Shown one piece after another: positions 515 through 18,940 of a stretch of 64,000 nt of DNA (the first letter of the stretch is position 1; each line of letters begins with the position of its first letter). A model generated the notes under the pieces. That model saw only the letters and a list, made by a program, of their open reading frames with translations. It was not told the origin of the DNA and did no database searches. The stretch is taken from assembly GCA_027574665.1 (NCBI GenBank), contig CM050656.1, positions 2,789,001 to 2,853,000 of the forward strand. The letters run 5' to 3'. The stretch is from Rhynochetos jubatus (taxonomy: Eukaryota > Chordata > Aves > Eurypygiformes > Rhynochetidae). Both the position numbers and the translations under genes were made by a program.

Positions 515-3500
515 TCGGAGCTGTTCCCTGACAAGTCACACGGTGGCAGAGTTTTCTACAATGAAGCCATAATGTCTGCCATGAGAATCCCTCAGGTACA
601 GTGGCATTTGGAGTACAAGTAAGTGTAGCAAATGCGAGGGTTGGGCTTGAGCTTCGGGGTCTCCCAACCCAAACGATTCGATGGTTCTGTGATCAATAGA
701 GCAATGAAAAAAGTTTTGTTCTAATACAGATTTTAGGAACAACTCTGAAATGTCCAAAAAAAAAAATTCCCAAAGCTCACCTTTTGTGTTTGTGGGGAAG
801 GGAGATTCGAACAGTATCTCCCGTAACAGCGTATTTCAGCCTTAAGGATCTTGTTTGCCGACTGTTGGCGACGGAAAAGCACCAAATCACTAGGTTGTTT
901 CAGAGTAAACACAGGAACTCTCTCAAAACCAGCACCGGTGTCCACGCTGGTATTTCTCTCTCCTCCGTTGTTCCCCTCCGTTGTTCTCCTCCGCTGTCAA
1001 GCTGCTATTTAGTCTCTTGAATGTGAAATAACTGTAATGGTGTTGCCTTTCCGTTCTCCTCTCTCCAGCACCTGGATTTGCTTTGGTTTCTTTGTCCTTC
1101 AGGTGGCCGTGGTGTGCGGCTCCTGCGTGGCTGGTGGTGCCTACGTGCCAACCATGGCAGAGGAAGCTGTGATTATAGATAAAATCGGTACGCTGTTCCT
1201 TGCTGGCCCACCTCTGGTAAAAGCTGCTACAGGAGAATATGTCTCTCCCGAGGACCTGGGAGGAGCTAAACTTCACTCCAAGTACGTGAAATAGGTCTCA
1301 AAAATAGTAGAGAATTCAGCATACTTCGCTTCAAAGAAACTGGTGTTCTGGCTTAAATTGGGGTGACTGAGCCGCAGTGACAGGACACAGCGTGGTCCTC
1401 AGGGACTGAACGCACGCAGTGAGAACGCAGCAGAAATGATGCTTGAATCGCCCGAGAGTTGGTGGTATGGGGTTACGTAGGTGGGAGCACCATGGGGCTG
1501 TTCCTTGAAATGACAAAAGGAACATGGCATTGGAATTTAGGCTCTACTGTTGTCCATGGGAACTTTTCACTTCCACTCTGTGTATACGCACACGCTGATA
1601 GAAAACTCAGAGGTCAGGCCCAACAGTAGAACCTATTATTACACCGTTTGCTTTCCTGCTCAGGTGTGGGGGGTTTTTTTGTTCGTTAGATGAGCCAAAT
1701 GGAAGCAAAATGAAGTGATGTTGTGGGGTGAAGCAGGGACTGGACAAATCCGGTTTTGATTTCCTGTTTTTCCACATACTTTCTGAGCAGCTTCAGGCAA
1801 GTCAGTTCCTCTGTGCCTCAGAGAGACCGGCTGCAGAAGAGGGATGGTGTCACTTCTATAAACGTTATCAGGACACATACATTAAAAAAAAATAAAGCAT
1901 GAGTGTGATGATGGAGAAAACGCATAAGAAATTATTTTTTCTGCCCTAAAGAGAGACGTCAAAATAGTAACTTCCTTCTAGACAGGGGAAAAGAGTGGCT
2001 TGGCTTTGGTATACCGTAACCAGATTGCATACCTTTCCCACAAAACCGAGCACCGGTGTGACAGCCAGCTCCCCGTGTTACGTGTGACACGTTGCTCTCT
2101 TTGTATCTGGGCCAGAAGTGCTTATTTTGAAATAATTTGTAAAGGTTGTTTTCCCTTTATGATACTGTTTGCAACAACATCATCATGAAAACAGATTCAA
2201 AGGTCTGTCTTCAATACAGGTCAACACAAGGCACAGGGAAGAGCTTCTTCCTACTGTGAATTTGGTTTGGGGTTGGACTACGCAGAAATTCCGCTGATTT
2301 ACTGCTTTCAGCTCATTCATACAAGAGCAAAATCACACAATGTTTACTGCGGGTTTGGAGAGCCACAGTACGGGTTAAGGCTTTTCCTTTAGCTTGTTTT
2401 TCTGTCAGAATTCAGATTTCATTAATTCCATGCTAATTGATGTTGCTCTCTCTCCTAGAGTCAGTGGCTGTAGTGACCATTTTGCATCTTCGGAAAAGGA
2501 AGCCTATGAGTGTATTCGAAACGTTATCTCAACGTTAAATTACGATCCCCTGCCGGAGGAGGCCCTGGAGCATGACAGTCCTCTCTATAGTTCTGACGAG
2601 CTCTTGGGACTGGCACCGCAAGATTATAGGTGTACTCTTCCTGTGAAACTGGTAAGGTGGCGGATACTGTATTCCTTCGTCCCGTCAGTCCCTCTGTCCG
2701 GTACCTCCAGATTAACAGCAACAGGCTGTTCTCTCTTGGAGAACAGTACCTGAGATACTCTGTATTACCTAATCAGTCTGCAACAAAGCAGAATGGCAAG
2801 AATTCTGTAGAATTATAGAAAACATTTCAGCTGAAAACCTGCTAGAGATCAGGTAATGACAGATGATGCCAGCTGATCCCCATTTGCTTCCCTCGTGCTG
2901 TTTGAGATGCTGTTATGGCAGTATGTCTTGTACTGTGTTGGCTGCCTTGAGGATGTGCACCCCTTCAGTGTCCTGTTTTCCCCTGCCTTTGGGTTTTTTC
3001 CCCTCTAGACTCTATCCTGTAACTTAAATGCCTCATGAAAACACTGACCAAAACCCAAGAAAGCTCAGATTAACCTTGTTTGAGGCTGGGATAGATGCTG
3101 ATACATAAGCAGAGACACGCAGAGCTGCCCACGCTATTTTCACTGTGTGGTTCTAGAAGAGAATTAGTCTCCAAAGAAGTGAATCCAGTATCTTTTCCAG
3201 GGGTAAATTCCTAAAGTTAAGGGGATTGGCTGTAGAAAGCAGCGTAGCTTTGAAGGCAGCTTTACACGGCGTTGGAAGAAAGCATTAGCAACATGCAACC
3301 GAGCGTTTCTCACGCACACAAACTGTGTCTGCACACGCTGGGTTGTGTACGCCACTTCTGTGCACACGAACGACTGTGCTCTGTAGCACTGAAGTAATTT
3401 TGGAGTTGAACTCGGGCTCAGACCACATGGTTCACAATCAAACATAACCTCAGATTTGGTATTTTGTGCATATTGAGTATTTAGCGGAGTGCAAGACATA

Positions 3501-6500
3501 AAAGGGCCTTCCGTGCTCGTTTGGGTTGACTTCTTGCATAGTACAGGTCTCCTTGCTGTTGGAACAGAGCGTATCTTTTAGCAGAACTACCCTATTTTCA
3601 CCTAAATTTCTGTAGTAACGATTACTTCTTTGCAGATTCTGAGCCGTCTGATGGATGGAAGCCGATTCCAGGAATTCAAGGCTAGTTATGGAACAACATT
3701 AGTAACAGGATTTGGCCATGTGGAAGGGTAAGGCTGTAAGGTTTCACTGTCAAAACCCATGGACACATTGGGCTGAAGAGCTTTCCCATCATTATCAGCC
3801 TTAACAGTATTCCAGTCACAATGGTGGCGGCGTTCCAAGTCAGTCAAAAATCGGTAATAACACGCTTCTAGAAAGCCTGATCTGTCTCGGAGCTCTGAAT
3901 TCACCGTGTCTCAGGACTGTAGCAGCAGAGGGTGATTATGAACGGCTGGTTTTCACGGCTTTGTGAAAGGATTTATTTGCTCACCAAAGTTAGTGGTCAG
4001 ACAGCTGGAACGTAGAAGTCTCAGGAGTTTCCTTAAGAAAGATCATCTTTAAGTGTTCCTTCCCAAACTGAGTTGTAAGCTATTATTCCTTCTCCCGCGT
4101 GATGGAGATGGGATAATACAATAAAACCTTGCGTAGTTCGGATCTGGCTGTATGATTAACACGTTCAGGAATATAAAACATCCTAGCCAAATCATATTAA
4201 AAAAAAAAAAAAGGCAGTAATATTTTCAGAGCCTCTTTGGGTTGAAAATATAAACTTTCCAGGTTGATTGTTGTGTTGTGTTGCGGGAGTTAGAGCCCAG
4301 GGTCCTGGCACCTTGTACGTGCCTTGCAGGGCACACTCTGACATCCGTAGCTCTACCTGCCCTCTGGGTATTAATCCACAGTAATACTTCCCTGCTTTAC
4401 AGCCAGGAGTGCTGTAGGACGTCCCGTTTGTCAGGCCGGTGAGGGTCCCGAATGCAATGACACGTGTCAGCGCCTCCTCTCACACCCCGAGTTGCTGTAA
4501 CAGGGCAGATCTCTGTGTGCACGGCTGTTTATGTTTCCATCCTTCAGAACACGGTGCACACCAGTGTCACCATTTCTGGGGTTCAGAAGTGAAGGTGTTC
4601 CCGTGTCCGTTTTGCAGGCACTTGGTGGGGGTGGTGGCTAACAACGGGGAGCTGTCCCACGACGCCTCTCTCAAGGGTAGCCATTTCGTACAGCTGTGCG
4701 GTCAGCGGAGCATCCCCATCCTCTTCTTCCAAAACACCGCTCCACACACAGCAGAGCCCACAAGCGTCTCGCAGGTACGGCGTTTTTAGCTCGGCGCGCT
4801 TCATTCAAGCAACTCCTACTTCTCGCTTTGTTTGTGATCACGTTTTGAAAGTTGTTGTTAGGAAATTTCTTCTTTTACAAGCCGCCTTTGATGGTTTAAA
4901 CCAAGAAGCTTCATAATTACTTTGTTCTTAAATCTTTCCATTAACATTGGCTGAGGTCAGTTGGATGAGATTCAACAAGGCCAAGTGCCGGGTCTTGCGT
5001 TTCGGTCACAACAACCCCCGGCAGCGCTACAGGGTCACGGAAGAGTGGCTGGAAAGCTGTCAGGCAGAAAAGGAGCTGGGGGTGTTGGTTGACGGTGGCT
5101 GAATATGAGCTGGCATGTGGCCAAGAAGGCCAAGGGCATGCTGGCCTGTCTCAGAACAGTGTGGTCAGCAGGAGCAGGGCAGGGATTGTGCCCCTGTACT
5201 CGGCACCTCGAGTACCGTGTTCAGTTTTGGGCCCCTCACGCCAAGAAGGACATGGAGATGCTGGAGCGTGTCCAGAGAAGGGCGACAGCTGGTGAGGGGT
5301 CTGGAGAACAAGTGTGCTGAGGAGCGGCTGAGGGAGCCAGGGGTGTTCAGCCTGAAGGAGGCTGAGGGGGAGACCTGAGCGCTCTACAGCCCCCTGGAAG
5401 GAGGGTGCAGGGAGGTGGGTGCTGGCCTGTTCTCCCAGGTACCTGGTGACAGGACAAGAGGAAACGGCCTCTAGTTGCATCAGGGGAGGTTTAGACTGGA
5501 TGGTAGGAAAGCTTCTTCGCTGAGAGAGTGGCCAGGCACTGGAACAGGCTGCCCAGGGACGTGGTGGAGTCACCGTCCCTGGAGGTGTTCAAGGAGCATG
5601 TACACGTGGTGTTTGAGGACATGGTGTTTGGGTACGGTAGTGTTGGGCTGGTGGTTGGACTGGGTGACCTGATGGGTCTTTTCCAACCTTAGTGATTCTG
5701 TGATTCTCACTTGATTCTAATTTTAAGCAGGCCCCTGTGCTAAACCAGCACTGTCCAGGTGGCATGCCAGCTGTAGAACTTGGCGTTGCTAGTGCTTTTT
5801 ACACCGAGGTACAGCCTATCGATTCTTCGGATACCGCAGTGTTGTAGGGTTTTGCACACTGATTATGTTTCTTCCGCTGAGTTACGCTGTAAAATGAGTG
5901 TGCAATGGGCTGTGGTAGTTCACCGTGCTCTCTGTTTTGGAAGAAACGATCGTATGGAACGGTAAAGAAATAAATGTTGTAGAAATGCATTGCGATTTTG
6001 GTGGGAGTGAAGGGAATTAAAGACTTCAACGATGTAAAAATCTTTACTTCCGTTTCAGGCAGAGGCTCACTCCAACAGATTAAAGGCCCAGGCCTCCATG
6101 ATGGCTGCTGTGGCCTGCGCTGCTGTTCCCAAAATAACCGTTGTAATCGGTGGCTGTTACGGGAGCGAAAGCTACGCTATGGTACGGGTAGCGTGAACAT
6201 TGACGGTTTGGTAACAGACTTGTGACACCTCACCAAGATTTCTCAGCACTTCCTTTTTAAAAGGGAGTCAGCTGTTGGTACAGACATTTAACTGGAGTTG
6301 TTCCTTTGCTTTTGAACTAAGCAATGCATGACAGGCTGTGATTGCAGAAAACGTGGTCTGCACCTAAGAACCTAGACCACTCGTAAAGGAACCCCAGGTT
6401 ATCCGACAACGTCCCCGCGCAGGAGCTACTCCTGCCTTTTTCTCAGCACGTGCTGTTTGGTGTCCGTGGTGGCGGAGCACGTCTCCTTTGGCCGTGCTGC

Positions 6501-9500
6501 TGCGCGTGCTGCTCACGCTGGTCGTACGCGCACTAGGGCTCCTTGCTCGCTCAGAATCAAACATGTGAGTGCTTGGGGGCAATATTGAGGGCGGTGGGGA
6601 TGGGGGCTACCGGAGGATGTCTGTGCTGACAGAGGGGCTGTAGCTGTGGTGGTAAAGGAGCCGTATCATTAACGCTTTGCAAATGAAACCGCATTACGTC
6701 CTGCCCTGATTCGACCGTCTCATCCTACAGACATATTTTTGTGACTCATTTCCATGAGTTTGCACTGCGCTTCTGTTTCTTGCAGTGTGGGAGATCGTTC
6801 AGCCCAAACTTTCTGTTCTTGTGGCCTAATGCAAGAGTTGCTCTTGTGGATTCAAGACATTTCTCCACAGTCCCACAAGCTGGCGACAGTGACTGTACAG
6901 GAGATGAGTCAGAGCTAAAACATCTGAAAGAAAAGTAAGGACATTAAATATAAACCCTTGCTGTGACACTGGGATTTAATTAGTTAAATTAACAACTTTA
7001 GTTCATCTTGCAGATCAACAAGAAATAAAGGGAACCTGAACCTACTGACATATATTTTAAATTTCCATGTAATTCCATATCTGTTCTCAGGATCTTCTTA
7101 AGGAAACACAAATTATTGACTTAAAAAATGCCCCAAAACCCAAAAACACCCCAACCCCAACTCCATACAATCCCAAATCAGGACACTGCTGTGTATTGAA
7201 GAGGGTGATCTGAATGCGGAGGATGCTCTGTGCTGCACTGACCAGATCTGTTACACGTTCTTTGCTGGATTCTTAGTAATTTTAACAGTAGCATTATTGC
7301 ACATTCACTTGAGACTGAAATATATACCTTTTTCATCTACGATTTTGGTCTACTGGCCTGACGGGTTTTATTACATTCGTTGTGCTTTTAAGCTTGTTTA
7401 ACACTGTGTCTTCTCCAGGCTAGAGGAAGAAAGCAGCGCGTTTTACTCCTCTGCCAGACTCTGGGATGATGGTGTAATTCTACCTCAAAACACTAGAAAG
7501 GTAGGGATTTTCCTTACGTGTCCTTTCCAGTACATTTATCCCCGGATCTCAAGGCGTATGCCTGTGACCCGCTCAAGGTCAGCGGCGTGCTGATTCCCAG
7601 AGCCGGGTCTCCCACTTCACACGGCGTTTTGTGTGGCATTGAGCTGTGCGATCCTCACCTCTCCTCTTCCCAGCCAAAATGTTTGAATTCTGGTTACTCA
7701 CCTACAGCATTTCCTCATCGAACCTCTTCATTGACTTTACCATTTGATTCTGTATCCAAATCCTTTCTTTTTCGGCCTTGCATGGTCACCTATCTCTTCG
7801 CTCTTCCCCATTCACATTGTTTCCATTCTTTTGTCCCAGGATGTTCTTTTTGCCACTCTCTGTGCCAGCGTGTAATCTGCTGTCTGTCTACATTTGGGAC
7901 GCCCCCCGTGCCTCTCGTGTGTTTTTTAAAGTTGGCAGACGTTTACTCCATTAGATTCTTAAGGAAAACCGCTGCCTTTGTTCCCATATTTTGCCTGCTC
8001 CTTGTTGAGTAGCAATACTTAAAAAGGTCTTTGCAATTCTGACGCTTGTTTCCTTAAAGCTCACAAATACAGCCTGCTACCTGTGAATCCTTCTAAAGAC
8101 TTCTAAAGTATTCGTGGTCCTACGTAGAGGGTAGATACTTTCTGTGGAGTTTATGGGAACTTTGGTAGTGGGAGAGCACTGAGAAGTATTTTCTAGTACC
8201 AGAGCCCCGGGACTAGCCCTCTGTAGAACTGCATGTGAAAAGAACATACGTGATAGCTGAAATGAATCACTGTCCCTCTTGGGTAATTTTCACCACCACG
8301 ACTCGAGAGCAGCCCTGAGGAGAAGAACCTCGGGGTGCTGGTGGACGAGAAGCTGAACATGAGCTGGCTGTGTGCGCTGGCAGCCCAGAAAGCCAACCGG
8401 ATCCTGGGCTGGATCAGGAGAAGTGTGGCCAGCAGGGTGAGGGAGGGGATTCTCCCCCTCTGCTCTGCTCTTGTGAGACCCCCCTGGAGTGCTGTGTCCA
8501 GCTGTGGAGCCCTCAGCGTAAGAAGGGTATCGGCCAGTTGGAGCGAGTCCAGAGGAGGCCACGGGGATGCTCCAAGGGCTGGAGCCCCTCTGCCATGGGG
8601 ACAGGCTGGGAGAGTTGGGCTTGTTCAGCCTGGAGAAGAGAAGGCTCCAGGGAGACCTTACAGCACCTTCCAGTGCCTGAAGGGGGCTACAAGGAAGCTG
8701 GGAGGACTTTGTACAAGGGCCTGTAGTGACAGGACAAGGGGTAATGGGTTTAAACTGAAAGTGGGGAGATTGAGATTGGACATCAGGAAGAAATTCTTCC
8801 TGGAGAGGGTGGGGAGGCCCTGGGACAGGTTGCCCAGAGAAGCTGTGGATGCCCCATCCCTGGCAGTGTCCAAGGCCAGGCTGGATGAGGCTTGGAGCAA
8901 CCTGGGCTAGTGGAGGGTGTCCCTGCCCATGGCAGGGGGGTTGGAACTAGATGATTTTTAAAGTCCCTTCCAACCCAAACCGTTCTGTGATTCTATGACT
9001 CCTGTCTGCATGTTTAGCTCTTTTTACAATCATGTTTTCTCCCAGTTGTGCTAGTAGGTTGAACTTAGGTTTGGCTTTGCCTGAACCGACAGCGTGTGCT
9101 TGCTCAGGTCCTTAACGTGCTTTCTTTCAAATAGGCTTTTAAAAGACAGCGTGTGCTCCGGTAGCAGTGAAATATGCACAGGGAAATGCTTATCACAACT
9201 CGATTTCCAACAAGACACACAAAAGGTTTTGGCAAAGACGACTGTTACACGCACCATATGAGAGTTAACGAAACCTTAATGGAGAATTATCTCATTTTTA
9301 AGAGCAGAAGCAGTTCTGTGTTTTCAGCCACTGTCATCACGAGACACCAGGACTTGTTAGAAGGAGATGGATGCAGAAGAGCAGGACTCTGTGCTGATTT
9401 TGCTAGGCAAATGGGACTCTCAGGATGCGACAACACAAATGGATTATCGCATAATATATTTTCACTGGAGTTTTACATCAGAACAGCTTCCTAGTGTTCC

Positions 9501-9872
9501 ACAAGTAATTCTCCTGTCACCACAGTGACTTTAAAATGGTTGAGTGGCCTTTATGCAGTGCAGACCTTGGGGATCCCAAGGCATTTCTTCCTTACCACCC
9601 CCCTTGCCCCAGTGATGCGCCACACCACCACCTCTCTCCACCCACGGTTTGGCCAACAACTGCTTGTTTTACATGTCCCTTCTTTTGCACAAAGACAAAC
9701 GCGTTACTGAACGTGTTACTAGCAAGGTTGCTAGTTATTTGCTTGTTTCAGAGGCTCATTGCTTAAACTGTCTCTCGTTTTTCATCAGGTAATCGCACAG
9801 TGCTTGGAGATCATCGAACAGCAGCAGGCCCGGGTCGTGTCTCCGTGGCAATATCCTGTCATCAGAATGTAA
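515..9872 (+). CDS. MCCC2-like carboxyltransferase paralogue, last nine exons (5' part outside window)
   Basis: Exons read at 515-595, 1103-1281, 2459-2651, 3636-3727, 4618-4774, 6059-6181, 6786-6934, 7419-7500 and 9789-9872 (TAA 9870-9872). Every junction is GT-AG and the phases join into one frame of 379 codons plus stop. The protein aligns with the second half of MCCC2, the mitochondrial biotin-dependent carboxyltransferase beta subunit of leucine breakdown. It shares [97 protein letters not shown] and [11 protein letters not shown]. It differs sharply at the C-domain active-site loop (exon ending 4774), at the start of exon 6786-6934 and in the last 28 residues, although it keeps a terminal Arg-Met. 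Identity to MCCC2 is only moderate, so I call a paralogue, not MCCC2 itself. A CR1 copy lies in the intron before the last exon and another in the intron after 4774. The mitochondrial targeting peptide, if any, is outside the window. Confidence 0.88.
4618..4774 (+). CDS. MCCC2-like exon with altered carboxyltransferase loop
   Basis: This exon encodes the segment that follows the GYPVGIVGNNG stretch in MCCC2. It starts [16 protein letters not shown], keeps [18 protein letters not shown] and then diverges to [13 protein letters not shown]. In MCCC2 the residues after QN are ITGFMVG; the Gly-Phe-x-x-Gly turn helps form the oxyanion site in this family. Neither glycine is present here. About five extra residues separate QN from the conserved AAVACA helix in the next exon. 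Both splice sites are good and the frame is open, so the change is not an artefact of a wrong exon edge that I can detect. Confidence 0.85.
4949..5708 (+). mobile_element. CR1 LINE, 5'-truncated, decayed
   Basis: The copy begins in the reverse transcriptase region (FNKAKCRVL-like, then pieces matching LVAKKAKG...[16 protein letters not shown]), with frames broken by indels. It runs to the CR1 3' end, 'ggtcttttccaacctt' followed by tandem GTGATTCT at 5,693-5,707. It sits in an intron of the MCCC2-like gene, same orientation. It is more diverged than the other copies in the window. Confidence 0.9.
8303..8998 (+). mobile_element. CR1 LINE, 5'-truncated, with long residual RT frame
   Basis: This is the 3' end of CR1 ORF2. 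A 191-codon open stretch (8335-8910) reads [20 protein letters not shown] and later [14 protein letters not shown], typical of the CR1 reverse transcriptase C-terminus, with internal frame changes. It ends with 'caacccaaaccgttctgtg' and ATTCTATG. It is sense-oriented in the penultimate intron of the MCCC2-like gene. Confidence 0.93.
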
Positions 9873-9963: not shown

Positions 9964-9969
9964 AATAAA
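9964..9969 (+). promoter_or_regulatory. Polyadenylation signal of the MCCC2-like gene
   Basis: A canonical AATAAA lies 92 bp after the TAA at 9870-9872. It implies a short 3' UTR ending near 9,985. Confidence 0.7.

Positions 9970-11059: not shown

Positions 11060-18940
<7,881 letters not shown>

Follow-up and report, generated by a model that had tools for sequence, protein, structure and literature searches.

The closest described relatives of the gene reported here are MCCC2 and bacterial MCC-beta, the methylcrotonoyl-CoA carboxylase (MCC) beta chains. Excerpts of PMC4347857, and for acetyl-CoA carboxylase also of PMC11735997, place the carboxyltransferase (CT) active site of such enzymes within a symmetric CT-CT interface. 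For Xanthomonas MCC-beta, an excerpt of PMC5991677 assigns Phe380, Gly421, Ala148 and Gly191 to two proposed oxyanions by comparison with Pseudomonas, roles that are proposals by homology. It also outlines a proposed pocket (Ala148, Phe163, Gly191) and CoA contacts at Ala46, Ala50, Lys113, Thr116, Leu455 and Val458. We located these residues in two Xanthomonas proteins (L033, L050): Phe380 is the Phe of GFMVG, Gly421 the Gly before Asn in FGAGN, Ala148 the Ala of SGGA, Gly191 the first Gly of TAGG and Phe163 the Phe of DHFGR.

Substrate choice in this family has been tied to a single residue, Phe191 in human-based numbering, which PMC4347857 in excerpt locates within the stretch RQDEVFPDREHFGRIF. 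According to an excerpt of PMC4673880, the substitution F191G all but abolishes the activity of bacterial MCC on 3-methylcrotonyl-CoA and confers activity on geranyl-CoA, and geranyl-CoA carboxylase beta (GCC-beta; 5ikl) naturally has Gly at that position.

A gene called MCCC2L, probably this paralogue, is already catalogued in chicken. PMC8469556 lists it, in the part used here, on chicken chromosome 8 at 28.6-30.1 Mb, together with RPE65 and DEPDC1. Turkey LOC104915350 and alligator XM_006273834.1 ("methylcrotonoyl-CoA carboxylase beta chain, mitochondrial-like"), each of which may be MCCC2L or MCCC2, occur in excerpts of PMC8424120 and PMC4727388, and the term "methylcrotonoyl-CoA carboxylase beta chain" occurs in PMC7835994. 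Our full-text literature search, with most subscription journals outside its scope, returned MCCC2L by name in a single paper, PMC8469556; neither its function nor the residues discussed below were the subject of any study it listed. Excerpts of PMC10148081, PMC13259823, PMC3199775 and PMC11077971 were not decisive.

We analysed a 64,000-nucleotide stretch of Rhynochetos jubatus DNA, referred to as the window, and found a complete paralogue of MCCC2 whose catalytic C-domain loops have been replaced. The neighbouring gene is RPE65, on the opposite strand, recognised by the similarity of its C-terminal open reading frame (ORF) to RPE65 chains (E = 7.6e-24); a further minus-strand ORF at about 15477-15950 resembles, we presume, the RPE65 N-terminal region. 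Because the chicken listing puts MCCC2L near RPE65, we take the gene to be most likely the bird MCCC2L locus, an identity drawn from name and neighbourhood, and call it MCCC2L below. The chicken gene, known here by name alone, would be the same kind of gene with RPE65 as a common neighbour. The paralogue is thus probably not new as a gene, and what is uncharacterised is probably its active-site variant. Its features, in window-relative coordinates, are as follows.

-3898..-3795, -3680..-3579, -1915..-1719 and -616..-438, plus strand: MCCC2L coding exons 1-4, upstream of the window (gene model)
515..595, plus strand: exon 5, residues 195-221 (gene model; homology to human MCCC2)
542..544, plus strand: codon for Gly204, which aligns with the selectivity residue Phe191 of MCC; SHGGR replaces DHFGR (alignment)
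1103..1281, plus strand: exon 6, which keeps the N-domain AGGAYVP and a further 12-residue loop; Gly232 at 1133-1135
2459..2651, plus strand: exon 7 (gene model)
3636..3727, plus strand: exon 8 (gene model)
4618..4774, plus strand: exon 9, whose tail (4736-4774) encodes 13 residues replacing MCCC2 ITGFMVGR (gene model, alignment)
4775..6058, plus strand: intron 9, 1,284 bp, GT-AG (gene model)
6059..6181, plus strand: exon 10, with the helix start minus its invariant glycines, then CYGSESYAM; Glu465 at 6167-6169
6786..6934, plus strand: exon 11, with the third altered loop LVDSRHFS at 6843-6866, followed by a 9-residue alignment deletion
7419..7500, plus strand: exon 12, containing a kept 12-residue stretch (gene model)
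9789..9872, plus strand: exon 13, with a TAA stop (gene model)
9964..9969, plus strand: AATAAA, about 90 bp past the stop, which may serve as polyadenylation signal (sequence reading)
11063-11212, minus strand: RPE65 C-terminal ORF (match to RPE65 structures)

Spliced together, the 13 exons encode 573 amino acids with no internal stop and one terminal stop. The start codon lies at -3898, 3.9 kb upstream of the window, and the stop codon ends at 9872. All 12 introns could be placed as GT-AG with the spliced frame open throughout; exon boundaries were picked at GT and AG, so the test of the model is the agreement of such sites with frame and homology. Exons 4618-4774 and 6059-6181 have CAG acceptors, GT donors and an open frame. 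An earlier note made from the window's sequence had described an MCCC2 paralogue with an open frame and intact splice sites, and the full model, with its MCC-beta homology, bears this out. It shows no pseudogene signs in the form of stops, frameshifts or broken splice sites, and it has 12 introns.

The least certain junction is the first. Its intron (L009 6206-6319) is only 114 bp long and stays open in frame, and its acceptor, ahead of exon 2, is weak, with pyrimidines at 5 of 19 bases of the tract, so a transcript retaining this short, readable intron is conceivable. Directly upstream of the first coding exon, at L009 about 5300-5900, lies a stretch that by eye is rich in GC and CpG and is likely a promoter island. 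The encoded N-terminus is Arg-rich, with six Arg or Lys and no Asp or Glu in its first 44 residues; it resembles a mitochondrial presequence, and the protein is probably mitochondrial.

MCCC2L and MCCC2 most likely descend from an intron-bearing ancestor and separated long ago. The best whole-length PDB match of MCCC2L is human MCC-beta (E = 4.3e-156), and Pfam Carboxyl_trans (PF01039) covers residues 94-560 (E = 1.5e-106; 357.4 bits against a cut-off of 22.3). With human (8j4z) and P. aeruginosa (3u9r) MCC-beta it has whole-length homology, the N-domain loops and a 10-residue stretch in common. In the region of the long N-terminal helix that PCC-beta lacks, MCCC2L aligns with the human protein from residue 41. 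The same 1.33-Gb genome also contains a true MCCC2 on contig C48, with 17 exons (16 introns), which keeps GFMVG, YGAGN, VMGGEQAA and HFGR. Bird and human MCCC2 are identical at 471 of 555 aligned residues, and MCCC2L matches them at 259 of 543 (bird) and 269 of 549 (human). Three of the 12 MCCC2L introns coincide with bird MCCC2 introns in exact position and phase and nine lie elsewhere, which points to a shared intron-bearing ancestor and an old split. The same pattern, three introns exactly common and nine not, is our reason for rejecting a recent duplication or a bacterial transfer.

The grouping of MCCC2L with MCCC2 does not rest on trees; the shared introns carry the argument. A quick tree of 83 rows (the best 80 of 593 relatives plus three) separated MCCC2L from MCCC2 and placed it on a solitary branch of 6.4, but the starred branches of that first tree forced the two apart. 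When MCCC2L was constrained to join the bird and human MCCC2 rows, lnL improved by 20.35 units over the first search, and the constrained tree was not rejected (p-AU 0.865). With the loops removed (43 of the 83 rows), the three grouped with a low support of 34. In that loop-free tree the MCCC2L tip measured 1.92, against about 0.33 for MCCC2. MCCC2L is thus fast-evolving even outside its loops, and relaxation of the whole gene is possible.

Against this background of general divergence, change is concentrated in the loops. We compared MCCC2L with 82 other MCC-beta rows: human and bird MCCC2 and 80 bacterial or archaeal loci, the best matches to the query alignment among 593 confirmed stretches, their proteins extracted by BLAST in 80 of 80 cases. 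The rows were not drawn at random, being MCC-beta-like throughout, and columns conserved in at least 97% of them were called near-invariant. Region counts start at human residue 62 and pass over positions inserted with respect to the human protein, yet they include all 185 near-invariant columns.

Loops 1 and 2 were the prior test; loop 3 and position 191 were picked out afterwards from the data or the literature. In loop 1, which spans the junction of exons 9 and 10, 13 new residues follow LFFQN, making the loop five residues longer than in human MCCC2, as the earlier note had reported. Its second observation, CYGSESYAM in loop 2 where human MCCC2 has SYGAGNYGM, likewise holds. The positions concerned are otherwise fixed: G406, F407, M408, G410, A447, G448 and N449 are each identical in 82 of 82 other rows (best 80 of 593 plus two MCCC2). 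Across loops 1 and 2 together (human 404-424 and 444-452), MCCC2L differs at 15 of 20 near-invariant columns; in the remainder it differs at 27 of 165 (Fisher p = 1.6e-7; best 80 of 593 plus two MCCC2). In loop 3, LVDSRHFS stands in place of VMGGEQAA (human 472-479), keeping none of eight consensus residues although six of these columns are near-invariant among the 82 rows (best 80 of 593 plus two MCCC2), and nine residues are missing from the alignment directly after it. In this fold the three altered loops of the C-domain would correspond to SGGA, TAGGA and an 11-residue loop of the N-domain, all of which MCCC2L keeps.

The loop change exceeds general drift. Of the fully invariant residues, the three loops retain only 5 of 22 and the rest of human 62-563 retains 109 of 120 (best 80 of 593 plus two MCCC2), so that the scaffold, with the N-domain AGGAYVP, is as well kept as first described. 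Six of 34 near-invariant glycines are lost (human 406, 410, 417, 422, 448 and 474), all of them within the three loops (same best 80 of 593 plus two MCCC2). Counted over all 185 near-invariant columns, MCCC2L deviates at 42; no other row does worse than 9 of 189, and the median is 0.5% of columns (best 80 of 593 plus two MCCC2). A local frameshift was considered and rejected as a simple cause: neither alternative frame of loop 1 or loop 3 yields the MCCC2 motif.

The replaced loops remove the C-domain half of the proposed catalytic machinery and leave the N-domain half in place. In related enzymes the C-domain oxyanion pair serves biotin. In MCCC2L its two positions are occupied by His, by the alignment used across a gapped loop, and by Glu465, at Gly448. 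The proposed N-domain pair is kept as Ala189 (SGGA) and Gly232 (TAGG). The acyl pocket is altered as well: the selectivity position Phe191, which is F in all 82 other rows (best 80 of 593 plus two MCCC2), is Gly204 in MCCC2L. The alignment here is ungapped, FPDKSHGGR against FPDRDHFGR, with the three-residue MCC insertion before position 191 present. Among the proposed CoA contacts, the Lys113 and Thr116 positions are kept; Ala46 and Ala50 are Leu and Gln, in columns that vary in the family; and Leu455 and Val458 fall in the stretch deleted after loop 3. Such partial change weakens the case that the protein still binds acyl-CoA.

Compared with MCCC2 and MCC-beta, then, MCCC2L lacks GFMVG, GAG and VMGGEQAA, has Gly for Phe191, and has a five-residue insertion in loop 1 and a nine-residue deletion after loop 3. 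The idea of a rebuilt active site stands for both loops originally named, but its extent was drawn too narrowly: three C-domain loops and the acyl pocket are affected, not two elements. Loop 3, the Phe191-to-Gly change, the deletion and the four exons upstream of the window were not part of that description. Its suggestion that the protein no longer performs standard biotin carboxyl transfer, or acts on another substrate, is a fair reading of the replaced C-domain loops and the changed Phe191. Judged from these residues, MCCC2L is probably no longer an ordinary carboxylase.

MCCC2L may be a functional pseudo-carboxyltransferase subunit. This is the best reading of an intact scaffold, N-terminus and set of splice sites, and we consider it moderately likely. 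The protein would fold as an MCC-beta-like subunit and assemble with itself or with MCCC2. Since the active site in the CT-CT interface needs its C-domain half, a homodimer should be silent: MCCC2L alone could not accept carboxybiotin, and a homomer would not be a working carboxylase. It might then act by binding, modulating or titrating MCC, or by holding an acyl-CoA. An intact vertebrate carboxyltransferase-beta paralogue that retains its scaffold and N-domain half, but not the half of the site serving biotin, would amount to a hitherto uncharacterised pseudo-carboxylase, probably mitochondrial, one that bears on leucine metabolism in birds and offers a natural test of how the N- and C-domains divide the work.

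The gene could instead supply half of a working site. In mixed beta-beta dimers, the MCCC2L N-domain, with its wider acyl pocket, would face the intact C-domain of MCCC2 and carboxylate larger unsaturated acyl-CoA; the reciprocal site, built on the MCCC2L C-domain, would be dead. The split between kept N-domain and lost C-domain oxyanion residues is what such a division of labour would leave, the position of the active site in the CT-CT interface (PMC4347857, in excerpt) would allow it, and the geranyl-CoA activity gained by F191G bacterial MCC (PMC4673880, in excerpt) fits the pocket change. Two different beta subunits, AccD4 and AccD5, interact in mycobacteria, as excerpted from PMC4347857, a precedent for pairing. 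Yet the excerpt of PMC4673880 reports that GCC and MCC form no hybrid, an identity to bird MCCC2 of only 259 of 543 may block mixed hexamers, and the CoA-contact positions are changed. We think this arrangement unlikely. If it were true, birds would have gained a carboxylase for larger unsaturated acyl-CoA, its substrate range altered through the union of an intact subunit with one that works on one side only.

Nor does MCCC2L look like a plain geranyl-CoA carboxylase. It has Gly at the Phe191 position as GCC-beta does, but GCC-beta keeps the C-domain SYGAGNYAMC where MCCC2L has YGSES, and GCC-beta lacks the three-residue insertion common to MCCC2L and MCC. The loss of YGAGN led us to reject this candidate.

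A new enzyme is a further alternative, in which a crotonase-type N-domain site and the rebuilt loops together would carry out biotin-independent hydrolysis, hydration or decarboxylation of an acyl-CoA. The N-domain SGGA, AGGA and a 12-residue loop are kept, pocket Phe191 is changed, and loop 1 has been swapped for a longer stretch, not merely deleted, all of which would suit a retooled site. Database searches argue the other way: whole-protein Pfam gave Carboxyl_trans and ACCA and no family of such function, NCBIfam on the C-terminal 198 residues gave only methylmalonyl-CoA decarboxylase alpha, far below the cut-off, and the PDB sequence matches are biotin-dependent carboxyltransferases. We hold this quite unlikely.

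A relaxed or dying paralogue, open yet without selection, would account for the long MCCC2L branch and the loss of invariant residues. To our knowledge humans lack MCCC2L, which fits this reading. Against relaxation stand the 573 open codons, the high retention of invariant residues outside the loops (109 of 120; best 80 of 593 plus two MCCC2) and the chicken MCCC2L listed in the RPE65 region in the excerpt of PMC8469556, which makes the copy probably an old one that would be expected to have decayed if unselected. We also simulated neutral decay, with substitution bias and indel rate set by assumption. The coding sequence stayed fully intact with a probability of 0.29, 0.078 and 0.0005 at 0.005, 0.01 and 0.03 substitutions per site, which argues that constraint lasted until recently. 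An intact gene of 573 codons argues for selection on the gene, while the loops themselves may simply be relaxed. That the gene is relaxed or dying strikes us as quite improbable.

That the model is an annotation artefact, with another, glycine-containing exon used between 4,774 and 6,059, is extremely improbable: cassette-like stretches that are in frame and carry G[hydrophobic]xxG are absent from the 1,284 bp of intron 9, although 100 single-base shuffles, which preserve base composition only, give 5.8 on average, the best ungapped match to the MCCC2 loop is weak (score 10, against 3 on the reverse complement), lacks that motif and lies near 5434 inside an apparent repeat, and loops 2 and 3 and Phe191 lie outside intron 9, beyond the reach of any single exon of this kind to rebuild the site. 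The case named in advance as refuting the altered loop thus has no candidate in the intron sequence.

Several introns contain repetitive sequence. A perfect 39-bp direct repeat occupies positions 1-39 and 50-88 of the window, within intron 4, and repeat-like elements lie in introns 9 (about 4960-5705) and 12 (8280-9000); the latter two resemble avian CR1 fragments.
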